64,000 bases of DNA from Dyella mobilis (GTDB lineage Bacteria; Pseudomonadota; Gammaproteobacteria; Xanthomonadales; Rhodanobacteraceae). The notes beneath the pieces were generated by a model. The model did no database searches. It saw only the letters and a list, made by a program, of their open reading frames with translations, and was not told the origin of the DNA. Below, piece after piece: positions 11,596 through 18,965 of the stretch. Location of the stretch: assembly GCF_016904945.1 (NCBI RefSeq), contig NZ_JADIKF010000039.1:620001-684000 (forward strand). The letters are read 5' to 3'. The number at the start of each line of letters is the position of its first letter. The first letter of the stretch is position 1. The translations under genes were made by a program, and so were the position numbers.

Positions 11596-11638
11596 CTCGC
11601 TCTTAAAGATGCATAATATATGCATCTTTAAGAGCGAG
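11596..11638 (+). promoter_or_regulatory. NsrR operator in the hmp promoter, embedded in a 43-bp palindrome
   Basis: Two 20-nt arms (11596-11615 and 11619-11638) are perfect inverted repeats around a 3-nt centre. The core at 11606-11628 is AAGATGCAT, 5 nt, ATGCATCTT, which is the classical NsrR site (two 9-bp halves with a 5-nt spacer). It ends 12 nt before the hmp ATG, and the nsrR gene is the next gene on the other side of hmp. Repression of hmp by [Fe-S]-NsrR, relieved by nitric oxide, is the expected mode. An AT-rich -10-like stretch (CATAAT/TAATAT) lies inside the operator. Confidence 0.9.
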
Positions 11639-11650
11639 AGTGCACGACCC

Positions 11651-12859
11651 ATGCTGACCCAAGCCCAGCGCGACATCGTCAAGAGCTGCGTACCGGCGCT
11701 GAAAGCTCACGGACTGGCGCTGACCAGAAATTTCTACACGCGCATGTTCGAGGGAAATCCCGAACTCAAGCATCTGTTCAACATGAGCCACCAGGCCAGC
11801 GGCGAGCAGCAGCAGGCGCTGGCCATGGCGGTGCTCGGCTACGCGCAGAACATCGACGATCCCTCGGTGCTGGCGCCGGTGATCGGCGTGATCACCGCCA
11901 AGCACGTCAGCATGGGCATCCGCGCCGAGCACTACCCGATTGTCGGGCACCATTTGCTGGCCGCCATCGGCGAAGTGATGGGCGAGGCCGCCACCGCGGA
12001 AGTGCTGGACGCCTGGGCCGCCGCATACGGCCAGCTTGCCGACCTGCTGATTGCCGCCGAGCAGGCTTTGTACACGCAAGCGGCCAGCGTGCCGGGTGGC
12101 TGGAGCGGTTGGCGCCCGTTCCACGTGCAGCAGGTGGTACGCGAAAGCAGCGAGATCGTGTCCTTCTACCTGAAGCCCACCGATGCCGGAGCGTTGCCGC
12201 CGTTCCAGCCCGGCCAGTTTGTCTCGGTACGCATCGTGGATGCCGAAGGCATGGCGCGCATCCGGCAATACAGTTTGTCGGATGCGCCGCATCAGGAACA
12301 TCTGCGCCTTACCGTGAAGCGCGAAGACGGACACGGCGACGCGCCTTCAGGACGGGTTTCCACGATGCTGCACGTGGATGTCGCCGAGGGCGACGTGATC
12401 GAACTGTCCTTCCCGCAGGGCCACTTCGTGGTGGATCAGCAAAAGGCGACGCCGCTGGTGTTGTTGAGCGGCGGGGTTGGCATCACGCCGATGCTCGGCA
12501 TGCTCGGCCACGTAACCCGGCAGCAACCCGAGCGCACCATCCACTTTGCGCATGCCGCGCGCAATCGCGAAGTGCACGCCATGAACGACTGGCTCCGCGC
12601 GATGGCCGCACGGCACGAGCGTCTCGACGTGGAAATTTATTACGAGAACGTCGGTGTCCATGACGTAGCCGGCGTGCACTACGACAAGCACGGACGCATG
12701 GATGCTGCGCAGATTGCCGCGAACGATCGCCTTGCTGACGCGGACTACTACGTCTGCGGCCCACGCGGATTCATGACCACGCAGATCGATGCGTTGAAGC
12801 AGGCGGGCATACCGGATACGCGCATCCATGCCGAATTCTTCGGCGCGGCGTTGGCTTAA
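11651..12859 (+). CDS. hmp: Flavohemoprotein, nitric oxide dioxygenase
   Basis: 402 aa from ATG 11651, close to the usual Hmp length of about 396. Residues 1-140 are a globin domain; the proximal heme His is expected in the KHVSMGIRAEHYPIVG segment. Residues 150-250 are the FAD domain (RQYSLSD motif for FAD binding), followed by the NAD(P) domain (LLSGGVGITPML; CGPRGFM near the C-terminus). It oxidises NO to nitrate using O2 and NAD(P)H. The upstream palindrome is an NsrR operator and nsrR is the convergent neighbour; the two coding regions overlap by 4 nt at their 3' ends. Confidence 0.96.
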   Translation: MLTQAQRDIVKSCVPALKAHGLALTRNFYTRMFEGNPELKHLFNMSHQASGEQQQALAMAVLGYAQNIDDPSVLAPVIGVITAKHVSMGIRAEHYPIVGHHLLAAIGEVMGEAATAEVLDAWAAAYGQLADLLIAAEQALYTQAASVPGGWSGWRPFHVQQVVRESSEIVSFYLKPTDAGALPPFQPGQFVSVRIVDAEGMARIRQYSLSDAPHQEHLRLTVKREDGHGDAPSGRVSTMLHVDVAEGDVIELSFPQGHFVVDQQKATPLVLLSGGVGITPMLGMLGHVTRQQPERTIHFAHAARNREVHAMNDWLRAMAARHERLDVEIYYENVGVHDVAGVHYDKHGRMDAAQIAANDRLADADYYVCGPRGFMTTQIDALKQAGIPDTRIHAEFFGAALA

Positions 12860-13290
12860 GAAACGATGTTTAGCGCGATCCGCAGCTTACCGGGTCGCGC
12901 CACCAACTGCTTCAGCGTATAGCTATCCAATACATCGAGAAAGCTCGTGCGCGCTTCGTCCAGCACGTGGCGCAGCGTGCAGCTGGGTGTGATCGCGCAT
13001 TGGTTGTCCGTGCCGAAGCACTCCACGATGGCGAGGTCCGGTTCGATGGCGCGAACGACGTCGCCGATGCGGATATCCTCCGCCCGGCCCGCCAACTTCA
13101 GTCCGCCGCTGCGCCCGCGCAGGGCGTCGACGTAGCCGAGCGCGGCCAGCCGCTGCGTGACCTTCATCAGATGGTTTTCGGAAATCGCGTATCGAGTGGC
13201 GATTTCGTGGATCGAAGAGCGGCGCTCGCCTTGCACCGCCAGGAACATGAGCAGGCGCAGCGCGTAATCGGTCTGATAGGTGAGGCGCAT
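12856..13290 (-). CDS. nsrR: Rrf2 family nitric-oxide-sensing repressor NsrR
   Basis: 144 aa from ATG 13290, with GGAG 8 nt upstream. MRLTYQTDYALRLLMFLA opens an Rrf2 winged helix, with the recognition segment in AISENHLMKVTQRLAALGYV. Three cysteines sit in ECFGTDNQC and TPSC, the position of the Fe-S cluster ligands of NsrR rather than IscR; the first gap is 6 residues, slightly longer than the 4 I recall for the E. coli protein. The neighbouring hmp has a textbook NsrR operator. Its own upstream segment (63 nt) shows no NsrR site, so it may be transcribed with the two upstream genes. Confidence 0.93.
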   Translation of the reverse strand: MRLTYQTDYALRLLMFLAVQGERRSSIHEIATRYAISENHLMKVTQRLAALGYVDALRGRSGGLKLAGRAEDIRIGDVVRAIEPDLAIVECFGTDNQCAITPSCTLRHVLDEARTSFLDVLDSYTLKQLVARPGKLRIALNIVS

Positions 13291-13353
13291 GGTTGAACTC
13301 CGGCAAGCTCTCCATGCTACACGTGTGTTGCCCACCGGGCGAATCTTTCTGCG

Positions 13354-15910: not shown

Positions 15911-17677
15911 TTATCCGGCCCCCGCTGCCGATATCGCGATCACGCGATTGCGTCCGGTTCGCTTGGCCTTGTAGAGCGCCGTGTCCGCTTCCCGGCACAG
16001 GCGCTGCAGGTCGTAGCCGGCCGTTTCGGTGCAAGCCATGCCTACGCTGGCGGAAAACGATATGACGCATCCATCGGCATCGAGCGGGCTGGCTTCGATG
16101 GCCCTGCGGATGCGGTCGGCGGTAGCAATGCCTTGCTCGCGCTGGCAATCCGCCAACAGGATGCCGAACTCCTCGCCGCCGAGACGCCCGAACAAGTCGC
16201 TCGAGCGCAATTGGCGCCGGCAGATGGCGACGGTATGCCGTAGCACGGAGTCGCCAACGGCGTGTCCGTAGTTGTCGTTGACTTGTTTGAAGTAATCCAG
16301 GTCGATGGATATCAGGCAGGCCGGGCTGCGCTTTTTTTCCAGCATGCCAAGCATGCGCATGGCCTCGCTCATGAAATGCTGGTGATTGCTGATGCCGGTC
16401 AACCCGTCCAGGCAGGAGAGCTGCTTGAAGCGCATTTGCGAGCGCTTGAGCCGAAGCAGCCAAAAAGCGATGAAGACCAGCGCCATCAGCAGCATGGCGA
16501 TATAGAGCCTGCTGGTTTCCATGGCTTTGGTGTTGAGGGCCTGTTGCAGCTCGAGGATGTTGTTCTGCTTGCTGAGCTTTTCCGTCTCGAGTTTTTGCGC
16601 CAGCGTGTGCTGCTGCGCCTCGTCGTAAGCCAGTGCCGTTGCGCTTACGTTGTTCAGATAGCCGATGTCCTGCTCTACGTAGCGTTCGTAATAGCCCAGT
16701 GCCGTCGCTGCGTTACCGTGCTTTTTCTCGATGCTGTAAAGCACTTGGTAGGCGTCTCTGAGGAATTCGCTGGTATCGCCCGGATCGCTGATGGCAATGG
16801 CTGCGAGCGCGGATTCGCGCGCCTTGTCGTCGTCTCCCAGTTTCAGGTAAGCCTGGGCGAGCTGCGTTTGGGCAACCAGTACGTGGGTATGGTATTGGTC
16901 CGCGCGAATATTGGGCATGACGCGGTCAAGCAGGGAAATGGCTTTTTCGGCCTGATTTTCATCCAGATACAGACCGCTCTTCACCAGCCAGACCGAGTCC
17001 AAGAATACGGATTGTCCCGATGCTCGGCATGCATCGATGGCTTGCTGAAATACGGGGTTGGAAGAGTTCAGCTTGTGACCGGCATACAGCGTAGTTAGAA
17101 GCACCGTTTTGGGTGCGCACTGTGTTTCTCCTGGCGCGCGAACTTCCGTCGTTTGAAGAGCGTAGCTAGCTGCAAGGTCGTATTGCCCGGCTGCCGTGAG
17201 CAGTTGGGATACATAGAAAAGGACCATGAAGCGAGCCGTTTCGTCCTGGATGTTCGGGAGATTGGCGACCAAGCGGTTGGCGAGTTCAAAAGCCTGCTCG
17301 TAGTGCTTGGAGGTGCGCATGTCATCCATGAGCAGTGCGGATGCTTTCGTTGCGATGACTTGATCGTTGGAATGATCGATGAGGTCCCGCAGCGCGAGGT
17401 CGGCGTTGGCGTAGTCACCTTGGTAAGAGGCCTGCCATGCGTCCAGATAGCGCAATTGCCACCGCTCACGCGTAGACATGTGCGGAGCTTGCTGATCGAG
17501 CTGTCCAAGAAGGCGAAGAAAGCGCGGGTGATCAACGGTGCGCAGACTTTCGGTTTGTGCCAGCAATACGGCGGTATCGGACGGCGCCGTCGTCGTAACC
17601 GCAGGCTGCGCGGAAACACCAAAAGCCACGGCCCCGATCAAGAGCCATGGCTTGGTGTGAAGCCTCCTTGGCGACAT
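15911..17677 (-). CDS. Membrane diguanylate cyclase with periplasmic TPR-like sensor
   Basis: 588 aa from ATG 17677. An N-terminal signal peptide (WLLIGAVAFGVSAQPA) is followed by about 340 residues of helical TPR-like repeats predicted to be periplasmic, a coiled segment, one TM helix (LYIAMLLMALVFIAFWLL, near 390-410) and a C-terminal GGDEF domain. The active site is GGEEF (starting at residue 500) and the product-inhibition site RxxD is intact (RSSD, five residues earlier), so it should make c-di-GMP from two GTP and be feedback-controlled. There is no EAL domain. It starts 14 nt after the stop of the putative borosin precursor, an unusual linkage. Confidence 0.9.
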   Translation of the reverse strand: MSPRRLHTKPWLLIGAVAFGVSAQPAVTTTAPSDTAVLLAQTESLRTVDHPRFLRLLGQLDQQAPHMSTRERWQLRYLDAWQASYQGDYANADLALRDLIDHSNDQVIATKASALLMDDMRTSKHYEQAFELANRLVANLPNIQDETARFMVLFYVSQLLTAAGQYDLAASYALQTTEVRAPGETQCAPKTVLLTTLYAGHKLNSSNPVFQQAIDACRASGQSVFLDSVWLVKSGLYLDENQAEKAISLLDRVMPNIRADQYHTHVLVAQTQLAQAYLKLGDDDKARESALAAIAISDPGDTSEFLRDAYQVLYSIEKKHGNAATALGYYERYVEQDIGYLNNVSATALAYDEAQQHTLAQKLETEKLSKQNNILELQQALNTKAMETSRLYIAMLLMALVFIAFWLLRLKRSQMRFKQLSCLDGLTGISNHQHFMSEAMRMLGMLEKKRSPACLISIDLDYFKQVNDNYGHAVGDSVLRHTVAICRRQLRSSDLFGRLGGEEFGILLADCQREQGIATADRIRRAIEASPLDADGCVISFSASVGMACTETAGYDLQRLCREADTALYKAKRTGRNRVIAISAAGAG

Positions 17678-17691
17678 CCGGATACCGCCTA

Positions 17692-17988
17692 TTAGAAGTG
17701 CGCGGATTCGCTCTGATCGGGATGAGGTCTCCGGCTGGGATCTTCTTTGGCAGGCTCGCGTTCCGGTACGTCTTCTTCCTCGCGGCATGGAGCATGGGAA
17801 TCGACCACTCGCATGGTCTTGTAGCCGAATTCCTCGCCGAGCAAGGAGCCATCACCTGCTTTTGCTGCAGCTTTCAGGGCATCCGAGGCGTCGGCTCGTT
17901 CCAATTCACGCATCAGTTCTTCGGTGGGTGCGTGGCGCAGCACGGCACTTTTGCCAATGGTTTCCAGCAATTCAATCGTATCTGTCAC
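17692..17988 (-). CDS. Putative split borosin precursor peptide
   Basis: 98 aa from a GTG at 17988, chosen because AGGGGA lies 6 nt upstream; an in-frame ATG 18 nt earlier has no such site. Residues 1-50 are predicted helical (TDTIELLETIGKSAVLRHA and EELMRELERADASDALKAA), the size and character of the borosin-binding domain of split borosin precursors. Residues 51-69 (FGYKTMRVVDSHAPC) are the likely core region, followed by an acidic, Pro-rich hydrophilic tail to residue 98. No signal peptide is present. The OphMA-like methyltransferase gene ends 149 nt upstream on the same strand. Identification rests on size, layout and neighbour, not on a homology search. Alternative: a small regulatory protein. 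Confidence 0.7.
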   Translation of the reverse strand: MTDTIELLETIGKSAVLRHAPTEELMRELERADASDALKAAAKAGDGSLLGEEFGYKTMRVVDSHAPCREEEDVPEREPAKEDPSRRPHPDQSESAHF

Positions 17989-18137
17989 GGTTTTCCCCTG
18001 TTCCATGTGATGTACGTGCATCGGTGCGATGCGGGCTAAAAATCCTGGTTACGAGACTGCATCAATGTGCGGCACAAAACGAATCGTAGGTGCCGCGTCC
18101 CCGGCGATCGCTGGATGATGAGGGCGGGGTGCGAAAT

Positions 18138-18965
18138 TCACGTGAATGCCTCGGCCCCTTCCAAGGCCTGCAAACGCTCCAGCATGGCGACGTTCTGTTT
18201 CATCTCGGCTGCGGGTGGCAGGATAACCGTTTCGGCCGTGGTCAACGGGACGTGCGGCAACTCATGCAAGGCAATGCGCCGGATTTGTGGCTTGTCGATC
18301 GGTAGCGTTGCACAGCGATAGATGATGATTTCGTGTGTCAGCGGGTAATCATTGCTGAGCAGGTCCACCAACAATTGCCGATGCTCGGATCCTGTCTGAA
18401 GTTTCTTCGACGACCAGTCTCCCACTACACCGACCTGCCACAGCACGAGATAGGCAGTGGGATCGATGCGGCGTTCAAAAAAAAGCAGCTGGCTGGCTTC
18501 AAAATGCTGGCAACCGAGACGGCCAGGGTCGATACCCAAGTCTGCGTAAAGGCAATCCTCCGCAGAAATGCCAGGCTCCATGTGCGCTTCGAAGCCCTCG
18601 GCACGCGCTACTTTGATTACTTTGTGAGGCGACCAGGCAAACACGCCGGGGTGTCCGTAAAACACGGCGCACACGCGCTTGCCGGCGCGCACTTCGCCCA
18701 TGAACAGCTCGACCCATTCCTGGTAAGTCTTCATTCGCGGCTTGCCGTCGCCGTAATAGGGCTGAAGACTGCGCACATCCGGGTGCATGCGTTCCAGCCA
18801 TACCTCTACGACGCTATCGGAAACCGCCGCAAACACCACGTCGGCCTGCTCGATATAGCTTCGCGCCAATGGCGTGAGGTGCGAGCCGAGCGTCATGCCC
18901 AGGCCGACGCAGGCGATGCTGCCGCGGCGGACATTGTTGGATGTTTCTGAAGAGGATGTAGTCAT
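18138..18965 (-). CDS. Borosin-type peptide backbone alpha-N-methyltransferase (OphMA/SonM-like, tetrapyrrole methylase fold)
   Basis: 275 aa from ATG 18965; an in-frame TTG 54 nt earlier is possible. It has the tetrapyrrole-methylase fold: VGLGMTLGSHLT at the N-terminus, then YYGDGKPRMKTY, VFYGHPGVFAWSPH and PGISAEDCLYADLGIDPG. Y71, R77, Y81 and Y103 have exactly the spacing I recall for the catalytic Y66, R72, Y76 and Y98 of the omphalotin enzyme OphMA. The family methylates backbone amides of a precursor peptide with SAM. It lacks a fused C-terminal precursor, so it is the split (trans-acting) form, and the small protein next door is the likely substrate. A cobalt-precorrin methylase is unlikely: no cobalamin genes are near. 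Confidence 0.87.
   Translation of the reverse strand: MTTSSSETSNNVRRGSIACVGLGMTLGSHLTPLARSYIEQADVVFAAVSDSVVEVWLERMHPDVRSLQPYYGDGKPRMKTYQEWVELFMGEVRAGKRVCAVFYGHPGVFAWSPHKVIKVARAEGFEAHMEPGISAEDCLYADLGIDPGRLGCQHFEASQLLFFERRIDPTAYLVLWQVGVVGDWSSKKLQTGSEHRQLLVDLLSNDYPLTHEIIIYRCATLPIDKPQIRRIALHELPHVPLTTAETVILPPAAEMKQNVAMLERLQALEGAEAFT

Follow-up and report, generated by a model that had tools for sequence, protein, structure and literature searches.

The closest described relatives of the locus considered here are the SonM-SonA pair of Shewanella oneidensis, a type IV split borosin (PMC8429565), and the fused fungal borosin OphMA (PMC6108569). SonM is a discrete methyltransferase in which Y58, R67, Y71 and Y93 are the core-binding and oxyanion residues (PMC8429565); their counterparts in OphMA are Y66, R72, Y76 and Y98, with a spacing of 6-4-22 (PMC6108569). 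The enzymatic mechanism of the bacterial split borosins is solved, and a constant gene for a cognate receptor would directly supply their biological role.

The window (the whole stretch of Dyella mobilis DNA that was analyzed, 64,000 nucleotides long) contains a comparable pair of genes followed by a third one, with the following features:

18138..18965, minus strand: methyltransferase, 275 aa, of the SonM/OphMA type of peptide backbone (alpha-N) methyltransferases, with predicted core-binding/catalytic residues Y71, R77, Y81 and Y103
17692..17988, minus strand: 98-aa precursor of the borosin type, starting with GTG behind the ribosome-binding site AGGGGA
17824..17988, minus strand: borosin binding domain (BBD), precursor residues 1-55, five predicted helices
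17779..17823, minus strand: linker and putative core, precursor residues 56-70, YKTMRVVDSHAPCRE, the variable region right after the BBD
17695..17778, minus strand: acidic, Pro-rich C-terminal tail, precursor residues 71-98, predicted to be disordered (pLDDT about 50)
15911..17677, minus strand: TPR-sensor/transmembrane/GGDEF diguanylate cyclase, 588 aa, ATG 14 bases past the precursor stop
16511..17608, minus strand: probably periplasmic sensor domain that follows the signal peptide, a TPR-like alpha solenoid (AF2, Foldseek, profile)
17117..17119, minus strand: invariant cysteine 1, C187 of the 588-aa protein, Cys in 129 of 129 sensors
17027..17029, minus strand: invariant cysteine 2, C217 of the 588-aa protein, Cys in 129 of 129 sensors
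15944..16411, minus strand: GGDEF domain with the motif GGEEF and an RSSD I-site (Pfam, residues 423-578)

The best match of the 275-aa methyltransferase in the PDB is SonM (phmmer, E 9e-75, residues 15-265 of 275), the OphMA group is next (E about 4e-48), and corrin methyltransferases match at E 0.002 at best. The protein is also recognized by the Pfam TP_methylase model (3.6e-18), and all NCBIfam equivalog models of corrin and siroheme enzymes score far under their cut-offs. Residues Y71, R77, Y81 and Y103 align with the four SonM residues, reproduce the 6-4-22 spacing of OphMA, and are conserved in at least 146 of the 147 aligned relatives. The locus shares with SonM-SonA a discrete methyltransferase, identical active-site residues and gene order, and a discrete precursor in which an N-terminal five-helix BBD precedes the core (PMC8429565). 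The likeness to OphMA is confined to the methyltransferase fold and the Y-R-Y-Y spacing, whereas the fused clasp and core are absent from the Dyella enzyme and the precursor is encoded by a separate gene (PMC6108569). The first-pass annotation of this DNA had called two open reading frames on the same strand, an OphMA/SonM pattern in the larger protein, the exact spacing of the OphMA catalytic residues, and the lack of a fused core peptide. All these calls stand: both frames are found on the minus strand (18965..18138 and 17988..17692), neither core nor clasp is present in the 275-aa protein, and the latter does not cluster with cobalamin or siroheme enzymes, which score far lower.

An in-frame ATG upstream would extend the precursor to 109 aa; the GTG start is favored because nearly all relatives begin with M-x-DTI at that position. 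A phmmer search of the PDB with the single precursor sequence does not reach SonA and gives no useful match; a profile built from 13 members of the precursor family does find SonA there (E 1.9e-4, residues 1-57). The helical N-terminal part described in the first-pass annotation is also borne out, with five predicted helices (residues 2-12, 14-17, 21-30, 35-43 and 46-53) in a model of modest confidence (pLDDT 66 overall, 70-85 within the BBD). When Foldseek matches of this model were realigned with VIA-align, all eight of the best matches listed were SonA chains (Z 5.6-7.0). In the 29 same-family loci fetched first from other genomes (L007-L035), a precursor homolog is invariably located just downstream of the methyltransferase, and the same holds for the presence of a precursor homolog beside the methyltransferase in nearly all loci from other families of the order, which excludes chance adjacency. 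The BBD further covaries with the methyltransferase (0.435, p 0.002; partial Mantel test on 42 same-family modules, in which ancestry is incompletely removed). The SonM match, the BBD profile, the predicted fold, the structural matches to SonA and the BBD-methyltransferase covariation all support the split borosin locus that was originally proposed; judging from sequences and models, the methyltransferase and the 98-aa protein almost certainly form a split (type IV-like) borosin pair, and by its sequence this pair is a new addition to the type IV split borosins.

Members of the precursor family combine a conserved N-terminal segment of 55 residues with a variable stretch behind it and an acidic tail. 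The cores vary by lineage: most of the family has PPQSTQTPGHEEE or a related core, the subgroup that includes the window protein has MRVDHDTHSPGH-like cores, other families and orders have NVVCGVFPAEEP, and Shewanella has YLVISHGNGD or FLLVNHGNN. The window precursor differs from SonA in its polar core (RVVDSHAPC) and an acidic tail of roughly 30 residues, whereas SonA ends at a hydrophobic core (YLVISHGNGD in a close ortholog). The tail was rightly described as acidic and Pro-rich but is not unusual, being family-wide in the order. The V-x-SH likeness to the SonA core does not survive comparison with the nearest relatives of the window protein, in which the motif is not conserved (RVDHDTHSPGH, KVDHNPHTGGH, RVNHDVHTGGH), and the correspondence of VDSH with VISH is treated here as a coincidence. 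By register with L63/I65 of SonA, candidate methylated residues would lie near V61-S64. The precursor begins with the BBD and contains no signal peptide.

What the first-pass annotation missed is the extent of the locus: it correctly described the biosynthetic pair but not the third gene of what turns out to be a conserved module, encoding the 588-aa protein. The latter is matched by the Pfam GGDEF model (4e-40) along with TPR models, and contains the GG[D/E]EF motif of diguanylate cyclases in the form GGEEF. In a high-confidence AF2 model (pLDDT 90, pTM 0.81), the window sensor forms an alpha solenoid that carries a long helix at its C-terminal end; the model resembles peptide-binding TPR structures, namely the LGN-peptide, Rap-pheromone and NprR-NprX complexes (Foldseek, with TPR matches being generic). 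Among the 131 linked cyclases, the profile of the sensor part matches 129 and the GGEEF motif is present in 127; the TPR domain is preceded by a signal peptide or by a hydrophobic segment at the N terminus, and a transmembrane segment is located just before the GGDEF domain in 127 of the 131 proteins. By this predicted topology, the TPR domain is probably periplasmic.

The methyltransferase, the precursor and the TPR-GGDEF protein constitute a conserved three-gene unit. When the neighborhoods of the window locus, 19 relatives and the second locus of the same genome were compared, only these three genes were conserved (the second-locus precursor is too divergent to cluster in this comparison but is present), and the remaining shared frames are antisense to or overlap the module genes. 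A GGDEF gene is encoded on the same strand within 5.5 kb downstream in 132 of the 146 methyltransferase loci and upstream in 22, some of the latter belonging to neighboring tandem modules; it is also found downstream in 41 of 41 further loci from several families of the order. In nearly all modules, the TPR-GGDEF gene is the very next gene downstream. Shewanella loci, those of the SonM and SonA orthologs among them, likewise have a GGDEF gene downstream, which is a further likeness to SonM-SonA, and so do loci of Colwellia, Rheinheimera, Alkalimonas, Steroidobacter, Burkholderiaceae and others; in Undibacterium, a Burkholderiaceae MAG and some other lineages, the gene order is precursor, sensor-GGDEF, methyltransferase. 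The Dyella mobilis genome contains 28 GGDEF matches in 5.2 Mb, so that the probability of adjacency by chance is on the order of a fraction of one percent for each locus, and both of its borosin methyltransferases have a GGDEF gene directly downstream.

Among the genomes of relatives, the methyltransferase and the sensor co-occur in 92, with 21 genomes containing the methyltransferase only, 3 the sensor only and 81 neither (counts uncorrected for phylogeny). The sensor family is rare, and a class-wide sample of 273 other genomes yielded no member of it. A methyltransferase is encoded no more than 6 kb away from 119 of the 150 sensor matches listed, including all of the best 50, and a BBD precursor is encoded directly upstream of 6 of the 10 inspected sensors without a nearby methyltransferase. 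In three genomes, a single open reading frame of 857-893 aa comprises the sensor, the GGDEF domain and the methyltransferase, and the precursor gene immediately precedes it (L204, L205, L208). In several arrays, one methyltransferase gene is accompanied by two or three precursors, each followed by its own TPR-GGDEF gene (L180, L184, L162, L169, L174); one precursor per sensor is the pattern expected of a ligand and its receptor. The linkage, the co-occurrence and the fusions rule out a generic regulator placed here by chance, and the cyclase is very probably coupled functionally to the methyltransferase/precursor pair.

Several loci are counted against this picture. Four divergent class-level methyltransferase loci lack both the sensor and the BBD; a sensor protein of Parashewanella (L116, 7015-8856) contains a degenerate GGDEF domain that has lost the active-site motif; and in Kangiella (L158, 7171-9369; L159, 5089-6563), tandem sensor-only frames without a GGDEF domain follow the methyltransferase and the precursor.

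The second complete module of Dyella mobilis (G000, contig C31:822505-825645; L055, L209) encodes a methyltransferase 60% identical to that in the window, a precursor whose tail is Ser-Pro/Pro-rich, and a TPR-GGDEF protein of the two-cysteine type. Pairs of a BBD precursor and a TPR-GGDEF protein without a methyltransferase nearby are observed in L194-L199; in one of these genomes, G014 (86% complete), no methyltransferase scored above the threshold applied. In about nine Rheinheimera-type loci, a GNAT acetyltransferase gene is inserted between the methyltransferase and the precursor (L162, 6734-7339) and possibly contributes a further tailoring step. Downstream of the module in the window (11609-13335), a flavohemoglobin-like gene is located beside an Rrf2-type regulator, as identified by eye; these genes are not considered part of the module, hmp being common to only 1 of 100 related loci, and neither is the upstream ASCH gene, which is not conserved. 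A promoter scan of the locus detected no sigma-70-like site, and terminator-like sites are no more frequent there than in shuffled sequence.

A more specific link between the precursor and the cyclase is suggested by covariation. In partial Mantel tests on the 42 same-family modules, the core covaries with the sensor (0.285, p 0.002) after controlling for the methyltransferase, GGDEF and BBD, whereas the correlations of the core with the methyltransferase (-0.12) and with the BBD (0.095) are not significant; a weak covariation of the core with the GGDEF domain (0.22) is counted against the preferred interpretation. Resolved by position, the core signal is strongest mid-sensor (up to 0.46) and is absent from the end of the BBD (-0.06) and from the sensor leader segment (0.06). 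Since no other segments lie as near to the core on the DNA as these two, simple linkage is an unlikely source of the signal, and mere proximity was rejected on these grounds, although the Shewanella replicate is less clean. There, the core again covaries with the sensor (0.20, p 0.002) and not with the methyltransferase (-0.11), but the BBD strongly covaries with the sensor as well (0.57), so that the whole precursor-sensor unit may travel together. Given that shared ancestry is imperfectly handled, the Mantel covariation is supporting evidence, not proof.

The presence of the TPR-GGDEF gene in the module shifts the likely function of the peptide from a natural product to a signal for a dedicated receptor. 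The favored interpretation, to which a probability of about 60% is assigned, is that the operon encodes an N-methylated peptide signal together with its own membrane receptor that controls c-di-GMP. The more specific proposal that the periplasmic TPR sensor takes the methylated core as its ligand is given slightly better than even odds. In this scheme, by homology with SonM-SonA, the methyltransferase dimer would dock the precursor BBD in the cytoplasm and methylate backbone amides in the adjoining core. The modified core would then be freed and reach the periplasm by means of a protease and a route encoded outside the operon: no conserved exporter or protease was detected within 6-8 kb of the module loci. 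N-methylation could aid the crossing by making the peptide protease-stable and membrane-permeable, which are stated properties of such peptides (PMC8429565); nevertheless, the window core differs from the known methylated cores in its polarity and charge, so that passive crossing is doubtful. In the periplasm, the core would bind the TPR solenoid of the 588-aa protein, which might relay the signal through the transmembrane helix to the GGEEF cyclase and alter the c-di-GMP level, and this shift may in turn change surface-attachment or motility behavior.

Two alternatives to a periplasmic peptide signal deserve consideration. In one of these, the complex of the precursor and the methyltransferase acts inside the cell, no peptide is secreted, and the BBD protein, methylated or unmethylated, binds the membrane cyclase or modulates it from within the cytoplasm; it could, for instance, be a switch that reports the SAM level. 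Such an arrangement would accommodate the fusions, in which the methyltransferase is C-terminal to the GGDEF domain and hence cytoplasmic, the lack of an exporter and of a signal peptide in the precursor, the covariation of the BBD with the sensor in Shewanella, and the existence of precursor-sensor pairs without a nearby methyltransferase. It is nonetheless considered unlikely: the core covariation is maximal in the middle of the TPR domain and not in the GGDEF domain, the TPR domain lies between the signal peptide or hydrophobic segment and the transmembrane helix and so would be out of reach of a cytoplasmic precursor, and a variable core on a conserved leader resembles a ligand. The other alternative, an ordinary split-borosin natural product with a defensive or metal-related role, the production or use of which is merely co-regulated with c-di-GMP, the cyclase being an accessory regulator rather than its receptor, appears quite improbable. 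Regulators are common in biosynthetic operons, and linkage alone is no proof of binding; however, one precursor per sensor in the arrays, the fusion of the sensor and GGDEF domains with the methyltransferase, and the core-sensor covariation would all be unexpected for a general regulator. Finally, the methyltransferase could belong to the corrin or siroheme enzymes and have no connection with the small protein. This possibility is compatible with the Pfam assignment to the tetrapyrrole methylase superfamily but is refuted in practice by the SonM match, the scores of the corrin and siroheme models far below the cut-offs, and the constant presence of a BBD gene next to the methyltransferase.

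If the peptide signal interpretation is correct, the role of these borosins becomes testable by core-sensor binding and c-di-GMP measurement, a class of orphan diguanylate cyclases acquires its ligands, and a peptide signaling system is added to those of Gram-negative bacteria. It would also provide a handle for genome mining, with borosin precursors to be sought directly upstream of two-cysteine TPR-GGDEF genes, even where no methyltransferase is encoded nearby. The main text of the SonM-SonA paper (PMC8429565) does not mention coupling to a cyclase, and no open-access paper containing both "borosin" and "diguanylate" was found, although subscription papers on split borosins may list the neighbor gene. 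It can be suggested tentatively, at somewhat less than even odds, that the proteobacterial split borosins, including those of Shewanella, are mainly the ligand half of a widespread class of peptide-to-c-di-GMP signaling systems rather than natural products that stand alone; in that class, just as tentatively, a backbone-N-methylated ribosomal peptide would be read by a cognate periplasmic two-cysteine TPR cyclase, as a Gram-negative counterpart of RRNPP.

The resemblance to the RRNPP systems, such as Rap-Phr and NprR-NprX (PMC10075063), consists in the juxtaposition of a propeptide gene with that of a TPR receptor, with one propeptide per receptor, and, at the level of models, in the TPR domain itself. 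The RRNPP receptors are intracellular and Gram-positive (PMC10075063), whereas the window receptor is predicted to possess a signal peptide and a transmembrane helix; furthermore, the output of the window system is a diguanylate cyclase, and its propeptide, for which backbone methylation is predicted, has no secretion signal. Although it would function much as RRNPP signaling does, the system is not classed as RRNPP because two defining features, the intracellular receptor and the secreted propeptide, do not apply. With the periplasmic-sensor diguanylate cyclases, the 588-aa protein shares the succession of a signal peptide, a predicted periplasmic sensor, a transmembrane helix and a GGDEF domain; it is set apart by its sensor, which belongs to a specific TPR family with two cysteines that occurs almost exclusively in borosin modules, and by its likely ligand, which is encoded by the neighboring gene.
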